Source: SAR324 cluster bacterium
GTDB lineage: Bacteria > SAR324 > NAC60-12
NCBI GenBank assembly: GCA_015232315.1
Contig: JADFZZ010000008.1
Coordinates: forward strand, 62,001 to 126,000
Direction: 5' to 3'
Length of the DNA: 64,000 bases
Position 1 is the stretch's first letter, and every line of letters begins with the position of its first letter. The notes under the pieces were generated by a model. The model had not been told where the DNA came from and did not search any database. It saw only the letters and a program-made list of their open reading frames with translations. Shown one piece after another: positions 5,810 through 15,503 of this stretch. The position numbers were made by a program, and so were the translations under genes.

Positions 5810-6412
5810 TTAGAAGGACGTTGGGCGTGAACGGTAGATGTCGTCCATGATCTGTTTCAGTGGGGGGAGTTCAAGAGCACTTTCGGCGGATTTCATAAAT
5901 TCAGTCAGATCATTTCCTTCCAGCCATTCATAAACACAGGCCTGCAATCCCATTTCAAGACGGTCAATCTGCCTGATAAATTCTGCTTCAGGTGATTTAC
6001 CTGACTCATATTCCTCCCACAACAGAATATATTTCTGTCCATTCGGAAGTTTTTCAAAGGTTTTTTTAATTGAAGCCAGTTCCAGTTGATATTTTTCAGA
6101 TGAGAGAATTCCATCCACAGGAGTGATATCTCCTGCATGAATTTCACCCAGGTCATGAATCAATGCCAATGTGAGAACTTTTTCCAGATTGAGCGGAGTG
6201 GGGGACTGAGATGCCAGCAATAGTGCGATCAATGCAAGGCCAAAGGAATGTTCGGCAACGCTCTCACAGACTTCTTTCGGGATACCACGTTTGAGCCATC
6301 CCTGACGATAAAGCAGTTTGAGGCGGTTGATTTCAAAATAAAACTGAAGCCAGACTGAATCGTGTTGATGCGAATCCGGCTTTATATCGCTCTTGATCTG
6401 CATGGTTGTCAT
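5810..6412 (-). CDS. HD-domain phosphohydrolase (YfbR / HDDC2-like)
   Basis: A 200-residue HD protein with the metal ligands in order: His in CESVAEHSFG (near residue 53), HD in ALIHDLGEIHAGD (near 86) and a later Asp in RQIDRLEMG. Length and motif spacing match the 5'-deoxynucleotidase / HDDC2 group that removes phosphate from nucleoside monophosphates. The nucleotide substrate is family knowledge, not visible. Its ATG overlaps the stop of the upstream VWA-FHA gene by four bases (ATGA), so translation is probably coupled to that gene. Pairing with FHA proteins is unexpected for a housekeeping nucleotidase. Confidence 0.82.
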   Translation of the reverse strand: MTTMQIKSDIKPDSHQHDSVWLQFYFEINRLKLLYRQGWLKRGIPKEVCESVAEHSFGLALIALLLASQSPTPLNLEKVLTLALIHDLGEIHAGDITPVDGILSSEKYQLELASIKKTFEKLPNGQKYILLWEEYESGKSPEAEFIRQIDRLEMGLQACVYEWLEGNDLTEFMKSAESALELPPLKQIMDDIYRSRPTSF

Positions 6413-8160
6413 GCAGTGTCATTAGAGGCTTCTGCTTTTGGAGAATTGTTCAATCCAATCCTGAATTTAAATCGAAAAATCCCTATGGCAATTTCATCGC
6501 CATCTCTGAGGAAACGATGCTCAACACGGCGATTGTTGACTAGGGTTCCTTCCTGACTATGGCTTAGATTCTGAATTTTGTATTGGCCACCAATCCGGAC
6601 TATTTTTGCATGTTTCAACGAGACGTCATTTCCTTTCAGGACCAGATCATTCATGTCAGAAGAACCAATAAAAATAACACTGCGGATGAGAAAATATTCA
6701 TGCCGGTTGTTTTCACTGACAAGGGTAGGAATTCCTTTGCGTATGGGCCCCCTTGCCTTGCTTCGATACACAGGTAACGAAACTTCAACCGGTGCTTCTT
6801 CCGTGGATGTCATGGGAGAAACCGGATTTCGAAACAGCAGTGTCATCTCTCCAATATCCAGAATATCACCATCTTGAAGCAAGGTTCGATGAATTCTGCG
6901 TCTATTGATCAGCAAAGCATTCTTGTAATTTTTGTCTTCCAGCAAAAAGGTATTCTGCTGAGGAGACAGGTTGACTTTATTCAGATTTGCCGAAAGTCTT
7001 AAATTTGTCCGGGTATTGATTTCTGTAAGAAAATCCAGGGTATAAAGTTTCTGTTCCAGAGGAATCAGTTGATCATGTTCACCCGGTGTTAAAATTTGAA
7101 AGGTTGGTTGAAGATAATGATTCAGCTTGGATTGAACAATCCTGGTTCTGACAAAAACGCCCACAAACAAAAGCACCAGACCACTCAGGCTGATCACGAT
7201 GGAAACAGGTGTCGGCGAAACCGGCCAGACCGGCGTTGCGTTCACTCTGGACTTCATCGAATAAATCTGTTCCTTGTGTTTGAGAATGATTTCCAGATCA
7301 TGAGATTTGTTTCCAAGAAACCCGAGATGATACGACAGCACATATTCCCCTCTCAGTTTATTGATAATTTTATCCATCACGACTGGTAATTCGGAAATGG
7401 AGTTTATCGAAACAAACTGACCATTGGTGCTTTGACTCCAATTAAACAGCCATCCGTTTGCGGCATTTTCACCAAGAACAACATACAACGGAGTGATGTT
7501 ATTGTCCTTTAGCAGGTCTCGCGATTTCTCCCACTGATTCATGAATTCCGGAGTCGGTGGATCTATATCTTCTGAAATGACAATCAACCATTGTCGACGA
7601 TTGACTGCATGGGGAAAGGAAGGAATATTACTGAGCAGAAAGTCAATGAAAGACTCTCGTCGGGAGACCCCATAAGTTTTTTTTTGGAACTGGACATATA
7701 ATTCTCCCCGGTCTTCATAAAAAGACGAGGGACCTGATTCAGCGCCATTGAAATTCAGGAGAAGTTTATCACCACTCAATTTTTTGGAAATGAGTAATCT
7801 GCTGGCTGAGTTAATAACCTGTCCCGTCGTATCATCACTCAGGTCCAGATTGATCAGGAGCGCCGTGTTGAGGTCAAATAACTGTTTGCGATAAACCATT
7901 TGACGAAAAGGAGCAAAGGTCCCGTTGATTTTTAAGGCGACACTCTCCTCATTAACCCCTTCCAAGGCCACACCCGTGTCATCGACAGCCTCCATAAACA
8001 CATGGTGGAGACCTCCCGCATAACCATTGATCGAATCAACCGCAACAATTTGCGGTGTGGAAAAAAATGAAGAATCTGCGAATGTCCAGGGGACAACTCC
8101 GCAGACCAGGACGAGACCCAAAGCCACCCGTCCAATGGCCCGATTTAAAGAATCCATCAT
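6409..8160 (-). CDS. Membrane protein with VWA-like and two FHA domains
   Basis: Order along the 583 residues: signal peptide or signal anchor (about 5-28); an extracytoplasmic von Willebrand factor A-like region (about 90-275) in which the metal site is only partly kept (LLINLDLSDDTTG instead of DxSxS); one transmembrane segment (about 313-338, followed by Arg-rich residues); then a degenerate FHA-like unit (about 370-450) and a canonical FHA domain (about 488-565: FIGSSDMNDLVL, VSLKHAKI, GTLVNNRRV). FHA domains bind phosphothreonine, so the cytoplasmic half should read Ser/Thr kinase signals. The VWA half faces the periplasm and could bind a protein partner. The stop of the upstream gene overlaps its start by one base (TAATG). 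Confidence 0.8.
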   Translation of the reverse strand: MMDSLNRAIGRVALGLVLVCGVVPWTFADSSFFSTPQIVAVDSINGYAGGLHHVFMEAVDDTGVALEGVNEESVALKINGTFAPFRQMVYRKQLFDLNTALLINLDLSDDTTGQVINSASRLLISKKLSGDKLLLNFNGAESGPSSFYEDRGELYVQFQKKTYGVSRRESFIDFLLSNIPSFPHAVNRRQWLIVISEDIDPPTPEFMNQWEKSRDLLKDNNITPLYVVLGENAANGWLFNWSQSTNGQFVSINSISELPVVMDKIINKLRGEYVLSYHLGFLGNKSHDLEIILKHKEQIYSMKSRVNATPVWPVSPTPVSIVISLSGLVLLFVGVFVRTRIVQSKLNHYLQPTFQILTPGEHDQLIPLEQKLYTLDFLTEINTRTNLRLSANLNKVNLSPQQNTFLLEDKNYKNALLINRRRIHRTLLQDGDILDIGEMTLLFRNPVSPMTSTEEAPVEVSLPVYRSKARGPIRKGIPTLVSENNRHEYFLIRSVIFIGSSDMNDLVLKGNDVSLKHAKIVRIGGQYKIQNLSHSQEGTLVNNRRVEHRFLRDGDEIAIGIFRFKFRIGLNNSPKAEASNDTA

Positions 8161-9008
8161 TATAACTCACAAAACTGCAGTAACGCTGTTCCAATTTTAA
8201 CGATGTCTCCTCTTTTCATGGATTGCTGATTGACCAAACGATAATTGATAAGAACCTGTCCCCCGGTTTGAGCATTCTGAAGAATACATTGTTGTCCCTG
8301 TTTGATGATGCGTGAATGTTGTGAGCAAACCTCTGAATAGCCTGTCAGCACAATATCATTCGCATAATCATAACCAATTGAAAATTGATCTTTGTCCAGA
8401 AAAAACGCCACACCTTCCTGTTCTCCGTTGAGTACTTTCAAATACGCATTTGATAACAAGATCTCTACAATCGCCATAAAAAAAGGAACACATATCCCAA
8501 TGACGACAATACCCAAAAAACTGCTAAGGTTTTCCAAAGGAATCAGGAGAAACCCTTCCAGAAAAATTCCGCCAAACAATCCACCCAATGCACCATTAAG
8601 CGTTTGCAAGAAGAAACGCCGGGTTAATGGACGTGAATAACCTGTAAATGAAGCGATACCAGTCGCCCACAGAGTCCAGGCAATCACGCGGACCACTGAC
8701 GCAGAAACATAAAAAGCAAGGAGACTCTGAGCACATGTAAATGCGATCAGGGCAATCACTAGCCCCAGTATGCTTCCCAACAAAAGTTTGCGTCGGGCCA
8801 AAGACCAGTTCTGATTAAGAAACGCGTCTTTGGCATAGATAAAAGCGCCTAATCCGGCACCTGTAAAAATTCCCTGATACACAAATAAATCCAGAAATGG
8901 AAGAGGGTAGTCCAAATAGATATAGGCCAGCAATTGAAACAACAACCACCCGCAAATACCTGCTGTAGTGCCAATCAGGATTGTAGTCAAAATTCTTTGT
9001 GTCCGCAT
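8160..9008 (-). CDS. Multi-pass membrane protein with C-terminal FHA domain
   Basis: The first about 195 of 282 residues contain roughly six hydrophobic segments (from about 8-30 to about 162-185). The last 75 residues form an FHA domain (FSIGYDYANDIVL, CSQHSRI, GQVLINYRLV, GDIVKIG). The protein should sit in the inner membrane with the FHA domain in the cytoplasm. It is the first gene of a trio with the VWA-FHA protein (one-base overlap) and the HD phosphohydrolase. No Ser/Thr kinase or PP2C phosphatase is present in the window. Function is unknown beyond likely phosphothreonine recognition. Confidence 0.75.
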   Translation of the reverse strand: MRTQRILTTILIGTTAGICGWLLFQLLAYIYLDYPLPFLDLFVYQGIFTGAGLGAFIYAKDAFLNQNWSLARRKLLLGSILGLVIALIAFTCAQSLLAFYVSASVVRVIAWTLWATGIASFTGYSRPLTRRFFLQTLNGALGGLFGGIFLEGFLLIPLENLSSFLGIVVIGICVPFFMAIVEILLSNAYLKVLNGEQEGVAFFLDKDQFSIGYDYANDIVLTGYSEVCSQHSRIIKQGQQCILQNAQTGGQVLINYRLVNQQSMKRGDIVKIGTALLQFCEL

Positions 9009-9417: not shown

Positions 9418-11253
9418 TCAACTAGAAAGTTGGTTGCGCAACAACTTTCTAACGTAAGCCGGAATATCAAGATTATTCAGCAGTTTATGTGGATCCTGAT
9501 TCTTCACAAAGGAGGGAATATCCCGTTCAAGTCCATATCCTCGGGTTGTAACAGGTTTCCACTGAGGAGCTTTTTCTTTGGAAGTCGCACTTTCCGGGAC
9601 TTCTTTTTGAGACATTTGATAATGATCTGACATTGGTTCAGACTCAGAATCAACTGAATAAAATTTTTCTTCCGGAACGTCCGGGGCAACTGTTCTTTTT
9701 GTTTGATTCAGTTCAACTTTTTTATTCTGCTCTGTTGTTGATTTGGCAACGCCTGATTCTTGTGCCAGTTGACGCCCAATCTCACGAACAGTTGTCAATT
9801 TAACAGTATGAGTAGACATATCTTCTGGTTGAGGGCCATCTTCTTCATCCTTGACCATCATTACTGGAGGCTCAATTATTTTTTGTTCAGACTGCATGCC
9901 GGTTTGGATTGTTTTCTGCTGAACATTTGCAGTCAACTGAGGTGAGAACCCTTCTCGAGGAGATAATGTTGAATTCAAAGCCTCAGTGTTTTTTCCCAAA
10001 GGCGAAATAGCTGGTTGTTCTTTTTTTATTTGTTCCAGGGGCTGAAGCAAAGGATTTTTCAGCGTATTCATCACTGTGTCAGTTCTCGATAGCGAACCTT
10101 TTGCCTGAGTATCTGTCATTGGACCAGGCTGAATGGCTGATTTTGACGCGAATGACATTTCCTGTGATGGCACGCTTTGATGGCGTGCCGTTGAAACGGC
10201 TGGTGACCAGGATGAACCTCCGGGCAAGTTTACAGCAACTTTTTCTTTTACAGAAACATGAGGGGTCGCCGCAATATCCACAGGGCTATCCGGAAAACCG
10301 GTCGCAATAACAGTGATCATGATCTGATCCGAAAGATCAGGATTGATAGATGTTCCCCAGATAATTTCAGCATCTTCATGAGCTTGCTGTTGAATAAAAG
10401 AAGTCGCCTCATTGATTTCATGCAGAGAAAGATTTTCATTCCCTACCACATTGATGAGAATCCCTTGGGCACCTGTGATTTTACAGTGACTGAGCAGTGG
10501 GCTATGAATGGCTTTCTCAGCCGCTTTTTTCGCGCGATTTTCACCAGACGCAATGCCTGTTCCCATCACAGCTTTGCCTTTATTTTCCATAACCGTTCGA
10601 ACATCAGCAAAATCCAGATTTACCACACCATTAGAGGTGATCAAATCTGAAATCCCCTGAATTCCCTGACGCAACACATCATCGGCCAGCCGGAAAGCTT
10701 CTTCCATGGAAGTTCGGTTGGTGATCATTCCCAAGAGGTTATCGTTAGGGATTACAATGAGTGTATCCACATACTTCTTCAATTCCTCAATTCCCTGTTC
10801 TGCGTTTTTTCTACGCTGAGGGCCTTCAAATTTAAAAGGCATTGTCACCACCCCAACGGTGAGTGCTTTCATTTCCCGTGCGATTTGTGCAACAACTGGA
10901 GCGGCCCCTGTTCCTGTTCCGCCACCCATTCCGGCTGTTACGAAGATCATATCCGCGCCTTCAGCATATTCTCTGATCTGGCCCATGCTTTCTTCTGCCG
11001 CTTTGTGACCTACGGCAGGTTTCGCACCGGCACCTAAGCCACTGGTACTGCCAGCCCCCAGTTGTAATTTAAAGTTCGCCTTTGATTTTTTCAGATCCTG
11101 CAGATCTGTATTAGCCGCTATAAAGTGCACTCCTGCGACTTTTGAATCAACCATGCGATTCACTGCGTTGCCGCCACCGCCACCGACGCCAAAGACCTTA
11201 ATGACCGGGTCATCATTTTCAATTACTGGTTTCATATTTGCGAATCCAACCAT
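9418..11253 (-). CDS. ftsZ: Cell division GTPase FtsZ with long C-terminal linker
   Basis: FtsZ polymerises into the division ring. The GTP-binding region ([13 protein letters not shown] near residue 22, glycine loop GGGTGTG at 110-116) and the T7 loop ([11 protein letters not shown] near 212) are intact. The GTPase core ends near 325. It is followed by about 250 low-complexity residues rich in Gln, Ser, Lys and Pro, then a conserved C-terminal peptide [12 protein letters not shown] that would bind FtsA. Total length is 611 residues against about 380-400 in most bacteria. The ATG used here is preceded by AAGGGG. ftsA lies 119 bases upstream. The last codons are embedded in a 29-base palindrome (9423-9451). 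Confidence 0.97.
9423..9451. repeat. 29-base palindrome in the last codons of ftsZ
   Basis: TAGAAAGTTG and CAACTTTCTA are the outer arms, with the self-complementary TTGCGCAA between them and one unpaired base. It encodes the last residues of the FtsZ C-terminal peptide and stops just before the stop codon. It could act as an RNA hairpin at the 3' end of the message. Confidence 0.6.
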
Positions 11254-11372: not shown

Positions 11373-12611
11373 CTAAAAGAATTCATGCAACCAGTCTTTC
11401 ATTCTCCGGGAAACTTTATGAAACAAATTTGATTCATCACCGGAAAAACGTAATTTGCTCTGACTGTTCAGGCCATAACGCACAAGTCCCACGCTTGTGG
11501 CGTATTTGGGCGAGTAGATCAATTCCTGCAACTTGCCGATATGTTCAGGGAATCCAACACGAACCGGAAGATTCAGCACATCAGAGGCCAACTCATCCGC
11601 ACCAGTCATGATGCAGGTACCACCAGTAATAACCACACCGGAAGCCATGACGCTTCTGTATTGTGATTTTTCTATTTCCTGGGCGATGAACTCAAAAATT
11701 TCCCTGAACCGATCTTCAATGATTTCTGCCAGAACAATTTTAGGAATAGTTCGGTTTTTTCTTCCACCGACCCCTGGCACTTCAATGAGTTCTTCGGGGG
11801 TCACCATGGATGTCATTGCGACACCATATTTATGTTTGAGTTCTTCAGCTTCAGCCAGAGGAGTTTTCAAACCAATGGCAATATCATGCGTGAGATGATT
11901 TCCACCCAATGCCAGAACAGCCGTATGAACAATGCTTCCCTCGGAATAAATTGTGATATCCGTAGTTCCTCCACCAATATCCACCAGAACCACGCCCACT
12001 TCCTGTTCATCAGAACTCAGGACGGCCTGACTTGATGCCAGTGGTTCCAGCACAATATCTTCAACATCTAGTCCTGCCTGGTTACAGCATTTGATAATAT
12101 TCTGGGCTGAGGTCACAGAGCCTGTGACAATATGAACATTCACTTCCAGACGGGTTCCGGACATATTGAGCGGATTCTGCACTCCATCCTGATCGTCTAC
12201 AATGAATTCCTGGGGGAGAATATGAAGAACTTCCCGATCATTGGGAATAAGGATCTGGGCGGCATCAATGACGCGCCGAATGTCTTCTTCGGTAATGGTC
12301 CGGTTATGATGGACGGTGACCATTCCATGGCTGTTTCGTCCTTTAATATGATGACCGGCAATTCCAGCATAAACGGAGGTTATTTGTTGTCCACACATCA
12401 ACTCACATTCTTCCACAGCCTTTTTAATGGCCTGGACCGTTTTTTCAATGTTAACAACCACCCCTTTGCGCAAACCTTCGGATTTTGCGGTTCCAACGCC
12501 TATAACATTAAGGATATCCTTACTGTCAAGTTCAGCAGCAATGGCACAAATCTTTGTAGTTCCAATGTCCAGACCTACAACGATATTATTATTATTTTTA
12601 CGTGATGGCAT
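11373..12611 (-). CDS. ftsA: Cell division protein FtsA
   Basis: Actin-like ATPase that tethers FtsZ to the membrane. The 412 residues show phosphate-1 [16 protein letters not shown] (near 12), the 1C domain region with [16 protein letters not shown], phosphate-2 [16 protein letters not shown] (near 205) and the adenosine motif [19 protein letters not shown] (near 328). The C-terminal end [11 protein letters not shown] forms an amphipathic membrane-targeting helix, as expected. It is followed by ftsZ. No ftsQ, ddl or mur gene lies upstream: the neighbours are a small exported protein and trkA, so the division genes are split from a classical dcw cluster. Confidence 0.96.
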
Positions 12612-12765: not shown

Positions 12766-13101
12766 TCATCTTTGATAAGAACAAACACCCCCATCAATAC
12801 GCTGGGTTTCACCTTGAGCACAGGGTGCTTTTCTGAGATCTGAGCGGCCACAATAGTATTCTCCATCAGGCAGTTTGGCCTGCATGGCAGGAATAGCGAC
12901 TTGTTCCTTGCCGGGGCGAAAGGGCGTAATCTTTCCACCCTTGACAAAAAAACGGCGGGTACCACGCTGGACCACCTGCTTACACAAATGGATAACTTCA
13001 TCGTTTTGTTCCGTCGGATACTGAAAGGCTACATCCGCTGCGCAACTGCTACAGAACAGTAGTATTGCCATGAGTAAGTTCAAAGCTGAATAATGGCTCA
13101 T
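12766..13101 (-). CDS. Small exported cysteine-containing protein of unknown function
   Basis: A 111-residue protein with a hydrophobic N-terminal signal (about residues 6-20) ending in CSSCAADVA. Either signal peptidase I cleavage or, less likely, lipidation is possible, since no perfect lipobox is present. The mature part has several more Cys residues (LCKQVV, YYCGRS, APCAQG, GGVCSYQR) and basic stretches, which suggests a small disulfide-bonded periplasmic protein. It lies 31 bases after the end of trkA and about 150 bases before ftsA. I do not recognise the family. Confidence 0.6.
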   Translation of the reverse strand: MSHYSALNLLMAILLFCSSCAADVAFQYPTEQNDEVIHLCKQVVQRGTRRFFVKGGKITPFRPGKEQVAIPAMQAKLPDGEYYCGRSDLRKAPCAQGETQRIDGGVCSYQR

Positions 13102-14570: not shown

Positions 14571-15503
14571 TTATATAGGGAACGGAACAGAGTCCAGAAT
14601 TTCCAGCATCACAGGCTCTCCGTGCTCCTGTCTGGAAAATATTAACCGATGCTGATTGGCTGGAATGAAAGAATTTCTGATATCATCCGGTATGACATAG
14701 TCCCGCTGGAAGCATAGTGCCAATGCTTTGCACAACCGCATCCACATCAAGGCACCGCGTAAACTGATTCCCATCCTGATTTTTGAATGCGAGCGGGTGA
14801 GTTCTATCAATTGATGCATGTAGGTCACCAGTTCGTCAGACACAGAAACTTCATCCACACAAGGTCTAAGTCTCATCACATCCAGCGGTTGTATCGCATG
14901 CTCATGCTCCGGGATATCCCCGGCATGAAAGCTTGCTTTACGGAGGAGGTGTTTTTCCACCTTTGCAGGCGGATAGCCTAAAGACAATCTGACCAGAAAA
15001 CGATCAAGTTGAGATTCAGGAAGAGGGTACGTTCCCGCGAAACTGACCGGATTTTGAGTTGCGATGATAATGAATGGCTGAGGAAGAGGATGGCGATGAT
15101 TGCCTATATCCACAAAATCATCCGTCATGGCCTGTAGCAGAGCGGACTGTGTTTTGGGAGAGGCACGGTTTAATTCATCGGCCAGAATCAATTGACGAAA
15201 AATAGGTCCTGGCTGAAATTCAAACGATCCGGAATTTTTATGATAAATTTCTACACCCAGGATATCAGATGGCATCAAATCTGATGTGAACTGGATACGT
15301 TGGAACTGAAGTCCCAGGACCTGACTGAGCATGTAGGCAAAAGTCGTTTTACCAACACCGGGGATGTCTTCCAGCAGCACATGACCTCCGGCCAGAATAG
15401 ACGCCACCGAATACCGGATCACAGGTGACGGACGTCCGAACCATGTTTCCAGTTGCAACTGGATTGTCTGAAGGCTCTGGAATGAGGCCGATGGAACAGG
15501 CAT
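14571..15503 (-). CDS. MoxR-family AAA+ ATPase
   Basis: Chaperone-like ATPase. The 310 residues show Walker A EDIPGVGKTT (46-54), Walker B with ILADELNRASPKTQSALLQAM, sensor 1 IIATQNPVSFAGTYPLPESQLDRF and the winged C-terminal lid. MoxR proteins usually act with DUF58 and VWA proteins to activate metalloenzymes or envelope complexes. Those partners are not adjacent here, where the neighbours are a PRPP-synthetase-like gene one base upstream and trkA 49 bases downstream. The degenerate VWA protein at 6409-8160 is the only VWA candidate in the window, and a link to it is speculation. Confidence 0.92.
   Translation of the reverse strand: MPVPSASFQSLQTIQLQLETWFGRPSPVIRYSVASILAGGHVLLEDIPGVGKTTFAYMLSQVLGLQFQRIQFTSDLMPSDILGVEIYHKNSGSFEFQPGPIFRQLILADELNRASPKTQSALLQAMTDDFVDIGNHRHPLPQPFIIIATQNPVSFAGTYPLPESQLDRFLVRLSLGYPPAKVEKHLLRKASFHAGDIPEHEHAIQPLDVMRLRPCVDEVSVSDELVTYMHQLIELTRSHSKIRMGISLRGALMWMRLCKALALCFQRDYVIPDDIRNSFIPANQHRLIFSRQEHGEPVMLEILDSVPFPI

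Follow-up and report, generated by a model that had tools for sequence, protein, structure and literature searches.

The DNA analysed here (the window) is a stretch of 64,000 nucleotides from a SAR324 cluster bacterium (contig JADFZZ010000008.1, positions 62,001 to 126,000), and the subject of this analysis is a pair of adjacent genes, c1 and c0, which code for membrane proteins carrying FHA folds and lie downstream of the cell division genes ftsA and ftsZ. An earlier interpretation made without database searches (the sequence-only reading) had joined c1 and c0 with the HD phosphohydrolase gene that follows them into a trio, and had missed the association with ftsA and ftsZ. The features of the locus, in window positions, are as follows.

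5810-6412, minus strand: HD phosphohydrolase gene, HDDC2/YfbR-like, 200 amino acids (Pfam HD_3, 7.9e-36), a lineage-specific neighbour
6409-8160, minus strand: c0, VWA-like - transmembrane - FHA - FHA protein, 583 amino acids (Pfam FHA, 7.3e-17, two stretches)
6460-6726, minus strand: c0 FHA2, residues 479-567, with Ser500 at the arginine position (alignment to GarA)
6829-7104, minus strand: c0 FHA1, residues 353-444 (alignment, AlphaFold fold)
7111-7206, minus strand: c0 transmembrane helix, residues 319-350 (AlphaFold helix, hydrophobic in the alignment)
7351-7869, minus strand: c0 periplasmic VWA-like domain, residues 98-270 (Foldseek to vWF A1)
8160-9008, minus strand: c1, membrane protein with six transmembrane helices and an FHA fold (6TM-FHA), 282 amino acids (YscD-type FHA Pfam match, 2.2e-12)
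8166-8447, minus strand: c1 FHA fold, residues 188-281, with Tyr213 in place of the phosphate-site arginine (Foldseek)
8454-9005, minus strand: c1 six-helix transmembrane domain, residues 2-185 (AlphaFold helices)
9418-11253, minus strand: ftsZ, 611 amino acids, with a long C-terminal linker (Pfam Tubulin, 6.3e-53; FtsZ_C, 1.2e-32)
11373-12611, minus strand: ftsA, with which the conserved order begins (from the sequence; open reading frame cluster c3, preceding ftsZ in 29 loci)

The pair was traced in 52 SAR324 genomes, i.e., the window's own and 51 others, and in a narrower comparison set of 39 relatives; the window genome is the sole member of its genus in the sample. c1 was found in all 39 relatives, and c0 in 38 of them and in 49 of the 52 genomes of the phylum. 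The three genomes without c0 are one whose contig ends inside c1 (G021) and two that are 57% (G040) and 51% (G042) complete. The order ftsA-ftsZ-c1-c0 recurs in several SAR324 families. Among the first 39 genomes 37 were testable, contig ends having removed G029 and G014, and in about 35 of these the first gene that can be recognised upstream of c1 was ftsZ. Two genomes depart from this: G009 has a polyphosphate-kinase-like open reading frame at this place, and in G024 no ftsZ was found in 8.8 kb upstream. The fts loci of G046, G048, and G049 also show ftsZ upstream of c1-c0. Pairing, order, and phylum-wide retention are plain from the genome sequences. Since ZapA was detected in 44 and MinC in 6 of the 52 genomes, the FHA pair equals or exceeds ZapA in spread and far exceeds MinC. 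An ftsZ-linked FHA pair carried by nearly all SAR324 genomes is a concrete candidate for a lineage-specific part of the divisome.

The distribution beyond SAR324 was assessed in one pattern-based scan of 84,980 species. The scan yielded 45 confirmed c0 loci, which were essentially limited to SAR324. Homologues are mostly named SAR324 cluster or Candidatus Lambdaproteobacteria, or bear older "Deltaproteobacteria" labels. A few scan matches carry general titles (Deltaproteobacteria, bacterium), and one 3.4-kb contig labelled Opitutales is presumably, as we take it, a misbinned SAR324 contig (L100). No publication on SAR324 FHA proteins, SAR324 cell division, or an ftsZ-FHA linkage turned up in literature searches.

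The three open reading frames of the proposed trio are present exactly where the sequence-only reading had placed them, and both of the overlaps it described can be seen: one base between c1 and c0 (TAATG, position 8160), and four bases between c0 and the HD gene (ATGA, 6409-6412). The c1-c0 junction measures -1 or -4 bases in most SAR324 loci, and such a short overlap, kept across loci, points to more than chance. The c0-HD overlap showed no conservation in other loci. What survives of the trio as a unit is therefore the conserved pair of FHA genes, with the HD gene outside it. A promoter and terminator scan gave a result no better than that for shuffled sequences.

The HD gene product is, as had been proposed, a nucleotidase-type HD enzyme by family. 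It matches the Pfam families HD_3 (123.9 bits), YfbR-like, and HD, and its best solved relative is human HDDC2 (4dmb, 1.1e-26). Residues of the metal site are kept (H55, H86-D87, E90, and D150), and H55, H86, D87, and D150 align with HDDC2. Human HDDC2 and E. coli YfbR are 5'-deoxynucleotidases, with which the window protein shares the HD fold and metal residues; its score against the YfbR NCBIfam equivalog (34 bits) is below the cut-off of 122, and it is closer to HDDC2. This closeness, together with the kept residues, makes a 5'-deoxynucleotidase-like activity plausible. Matches to the HD protein were found in 8 of the 39 relatives, counting the window genome (the others are 27-39% identical and encoded on different contigs from the FHA pair), and in 11 of the 52 phylum genomes, counting the window's own (the ten others are 27-40% identical). 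Not one of the 51 further SAR324 genomes searched has an HD gene beside the FHA pair; in relatives it is mostly found alone, the very outcome that the sequence-only reading had named as refuting the linkage. The gene after c0 is instead argB in G002, G004, G005, and family f2, argJ in family f3, a low-molecular-weight phosphatase gene (LMW-PTPase) in genus g2, and a convergent gene (c8) in g4, g7, and g8. The FHA-gene linkage that sets the window protein apart from HDDC2 and YfbR is unique to the window genome, and comparison of the loci indicates that the HD gene came to lie behind the pair, ends overlapping, in this lineage only. A nucleotide-degrading output of the pair, as the sequence-only reading had it, can thus be set aside as a false lead.

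AlphaFold models of c1 and c0, built from alignments of relatives, predict envelope proteins with cytoplasmic FHA domains, in agreement with the sequence-only reading. The c1 model (pLDDT, the predicted local distance difference test score, 90.8) has six transmembrane helices (residues 2-33, 41-58, 68-99, 103-122, 130-154, and 159-185) followed by a C-terminal FHA fold. Foldseek matched this fold to the FHA domains of GarA and OdhI with TM-scores of ~0.8-0.94 by target, as befits an FHA beta-sandwich. The listed PDB matches of c1 cover the FHA part only and not the six-helix domain, and CdsD (3gqs) is the sole direct phmmer match in the PDB. The most conserved stretch of c1 in the alignment is the VNYR/KIGTALLQY end.

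The c0 model (pLDDT 80.4) starts with an N-terminal signal or transmembrane segment, continues with a periplasmic part made of beta structure and a VWA-like Rossmann fold, and, after a transmembrane helix, ends in two FHA folds. The earlier description of c0 as a VWA/FHA protein holds as regards the kinds of domain; the FHA folds are two, not one. The periplasmic domain is predicted to be a degenerate VWA domain, as had been claimed. It has no Pfam VWA match, and the DxSxS metal motif (metal-ion-dependent adhesion site, MIDAS) is replaced by DLSDD. As modelled, it has a Rossmann-like VWA fold, with Foldseek TM-scores to vWF A1 of 0.6-0.7 by target length and matches to ArnB-type and other VWA structures. 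The VWA-like part is optional, since orthologues of ~281-350 amino acids align without it. The most conserved part of c0 is FHA1, with the run LEDKNYKNALLINRRR and many invariant columns in the alignment. One of the c0 FHA folds gave Foldseek TM-scores of ~0.8-0.89 by target to FHA structures. The Pfam name attached to the c1 and c0 folds, "Yop-YscD_cpl, inner membrane component of T3SS", is likely to give rise to wrong annotations as type III secretion system (T3SS) proteins. Identity with SctD/YscD was considered and rejected (15.6 bits against a cut-off of 86), and no T3SS genes were recognised around the pair.

FHA domains contact phosphate through an arginine (GR) and a serine (SxxH). At the arginine position of c1, 35 sequences, three paralogues included, have Tyr (22), Lys (5), Thr (3), Ser (3), Cys (1), or Gln (1), and never Arg. 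No recognisable phosphate site could be discerned in FHA1 of c0 in the alignment. In FHA2 of c0, the GarA sequence GRHPDSD...VSRRHA aligns with GSSDMND...VSLKHA, so that the window protein has Ser500 at the arginine position and keeps Ser514. Of 34 orthologues, 21 retain the FHA2 arginine, and only two orthologues have arginine and serine together. The pair thus displays FHA folds whose phosphothreonine site is largely lost, and, as the alignments make clear, none of the three FHA domains of this organism has the phosphate-binding arginine. Phosphothreonine gating, as proposed in the sequence-only reading, is therefore unlikely here. Lineages that keep the FHA2 arginine could still be gated in this way. 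A Ser/Thr kinase and a PP2C phosphatase had been suggested as partners to look for elsewhere in the genome; 14 Pkinase matches were found in the genome and none in the window's locus, while the genome yielded no PP2C_2 phosphatase. About a dozen of the Pkinase matches lie in frames of ~1,650-2,020 amino acids (e.g., C24:38285, C8:50831, C71:5081, and C14:44161); Ser/Thr kinases of such length are unusually numerous here.

Known systems offer partial parallels to the pair. ArnA and ArnB of Sulfolobus, regulators of the archaellum, are FHA and VWA partners under kinase control. They resemble the SAR324 proteins in pairing FHA and VWA modules, and both were turned up by Foldseek; in SAR324, by contrast, a single membrane protein combines FHA and VWA-like parts, and for the archaeal pair no linkage to ftsZ is described. 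The mycobacterial proteins FhaB/FipA and FhaA (of the pkn/division cluster) are likewise FHA proteins encoded with cell-division or cell-wall genes. FipA has been reported to interact with FtsZ, which, with FhaB, sets a precedent for FHA proteins in division (PMC3989709); the SAR324 pair is tied to ftsZ by gene linkage. c0 and c1 score 35 and 26 bits against the FhaB NCBIfam equivalog (cut-off 125) and are not members of that family. They also differ from FhaB/FipA in having the six-helix and VWA-like parts, in the lack of an adjoining kinase gene, and in the lack of the phosphate-binding arginine in the window organism. YscD, PrgH, MxiG, and CdsD of type III secretion are likewise membrane proteins with a degenerate FHA fold, although in c1 and c0 the FHA folds are C-terminal, after six transmembrane helices or after a transmembrane helix. 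The FHA fold of PrgH, a T3SS membrane ring protein, is thought not to bind phosphothreonine, a precedent that such a fold can serve without this function (PMC3635987).

A second pair of this architecture, 6TM-FHA plus VWA-TM-FHA, is encoded in the window genome away from ftsZ (L066). The VWA protein of this paralogous pair has an intact motif (DNSGS) and a Pfam VWA match (5e-13). In seven genomes (G036 and G046-G051) a sister 6TM-FHA gene lies directly behind a gene for a Ser/Thr kinase of ~645 amino acids. The VWA-FHA gene comes next in six of these seven cassettes; the seventh, that of G050, is cut off within the 6TM-FHA gene by the end of the contig. Loci with the kinase - 6TM-FHA - VWA-TM-FHA cassette, all from family f3, are:

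L068, 1275-5505
L116, 2236-6505
L117, 2383-6670
L118, 1675-5965
L119, 2519-6800
L120, 2918-7208
L121, 2131-4545 (cut at the contig end)

A gene of ~180 amino acids lies directly upstream of the kinase gene in most cassette copies; the L120 copy was tested and matched no Pfam family. In a maximum-likelihood tree, the ftsZ-linked and sister 6TM-FHA proteins were split on a long branch with modest support (69). The tree and the kinase-linked sister pair together make the ftsZ-linked pair, whose own locus has no kinase gene, a relative of the kinase-linked system.

What remains once the trio falls is a phylum-specific, ftsZ-linked FHA pair. We favour, with a rough probability of 0.55, the reading that ftsA-ftsZ-c1-c0 is the actual unit, a division locus found throughout SAR324 in which a membrane-anchored FHA scaffold works with the Z-ring. 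c1 and c0 are probably division-associated proteins that have so far gone unstudied. Judging from gene context, the two would most likely form one inner-membrane complex, whose cytoplasmic FHA folds may serve as modules for protein-protein docking close to the Z-ring. By binding FtsZ, FtsA, or a further component of the divisome, they would anchor the ring or regulate it. Such docking is probably not phosphothreonine-gated in this organism. A more specific version, to which we give somewhat less than even odds, holds that the 6TM-FHA and TM-FHA-FHA membrane complex is a divisome component of SAR324's own, derived from or sister to the kinase-linked FHA/VWA pair, and that its FHA folds are now phosphate-independent docking modules for FtsZ or FtsA.

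Several observations weigh against a division role. The diverged paralogous pair away from ftsZ means that the underlying biochemistry may not be specific to division. The gap between ftsZ and c1 is 409 bp in the window and often 100-700 bp, and c1-c0 may thus be transcribed from a promoter of their own. trkA, a phosphoribosyl pyrophosphate (PRPP) synthetase-like gene, and a 111-amino-acid gene are also partly conserved upstream, and slow shuffling of a core locus could account for the ftsZ synteny. The pair might accordingly have no part in division and serve, e.g., as a scaffold for secretion or for envelope stability in general, merely sharing its neighbourhood with ftsAZ, a view with which the second pair, the variability of the gap, and the YscD-type FHA profile matches would agree. 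We nevertheless consider it unlikely, since the ftsZ-c1-c0 order survives across several families while the genes on the other side change, and no secretion genes were recognised nearby.

About equally unlikely, in our estimate, is a kinase relay, in which a Ser/Thr kinase would mark divisome proteins, c0 FHA2 would read the mark, and the VWA-like domain would sense the state of the envelope. The position of the sister pair directly behind the kinase gene argues for it, as does the co-occurrence of kinase and arginine: a kinase above the Pfam cut-off was found in 13 of the 21 genomes that keep the FHA2 arginine and in 1 of the 13 that have lost it (Fisher p = 0.003), a statistic that ignores shared ancestry and may reflect one or two losses. 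Being uncorrected for phylogeny, and with the window genome itself an exception (it has kinases and lacks the arginine), this association is only a hint. Moreover, eight genomes keep the arginine with no detected kinase, the serine that is the second phosphate-binding residue occurs in only two of the arginine-bearing sequences, and the kinase-linked paralogues, where examined, also lack the arginine. The original model, a phosphothreonine-gated envelope complex of all three proteins in which the HD enzyme would hydrolyse nucleotides as the output, is largely refuted and now very improbable. The gene overlaps suggest translational coupling, the HD metal site is intact, and the genome has several Ser/Thr kinases; against this stand the replacement of the HD gene by argB, argJ, or LMW-PTPase at the loci of other SAR324 genomes, the loss of arginine from all three FHA domains, and the failure to find a PP2C_2 phosphatase.

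Some neighbouring genes deserve mention. The 111-amino-acid open reading frame (window 12766-13101, minus strand; cluster c4) matches no Pfam family and lies between ftsA and trkA in 19 loci. A MoxR-type AAA ATPase gene (window 14571-15503, minus strand) lies between trkA and the PRPP-synthetase-like gene and is not at that place in the loci of relatives. MoxR proteins are often partners of VWA proteins; the nearest VWA-like protein to this gene is c0, whose VWA-like domain is predicted to be periplasmic. Finally, family f2 has, besides a normal ftsZ, a second, shorter FtsZ-like gene near the FHA pair, ~45-49% identical to the window FtsZ:

L052, 6550-7527, minus strand: second FtsZ-like gene
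L059, 7767-8747, minus strand: second FtsZ-like gene
L055, about 7262-8140, plus strand: second FtsZ-like gene

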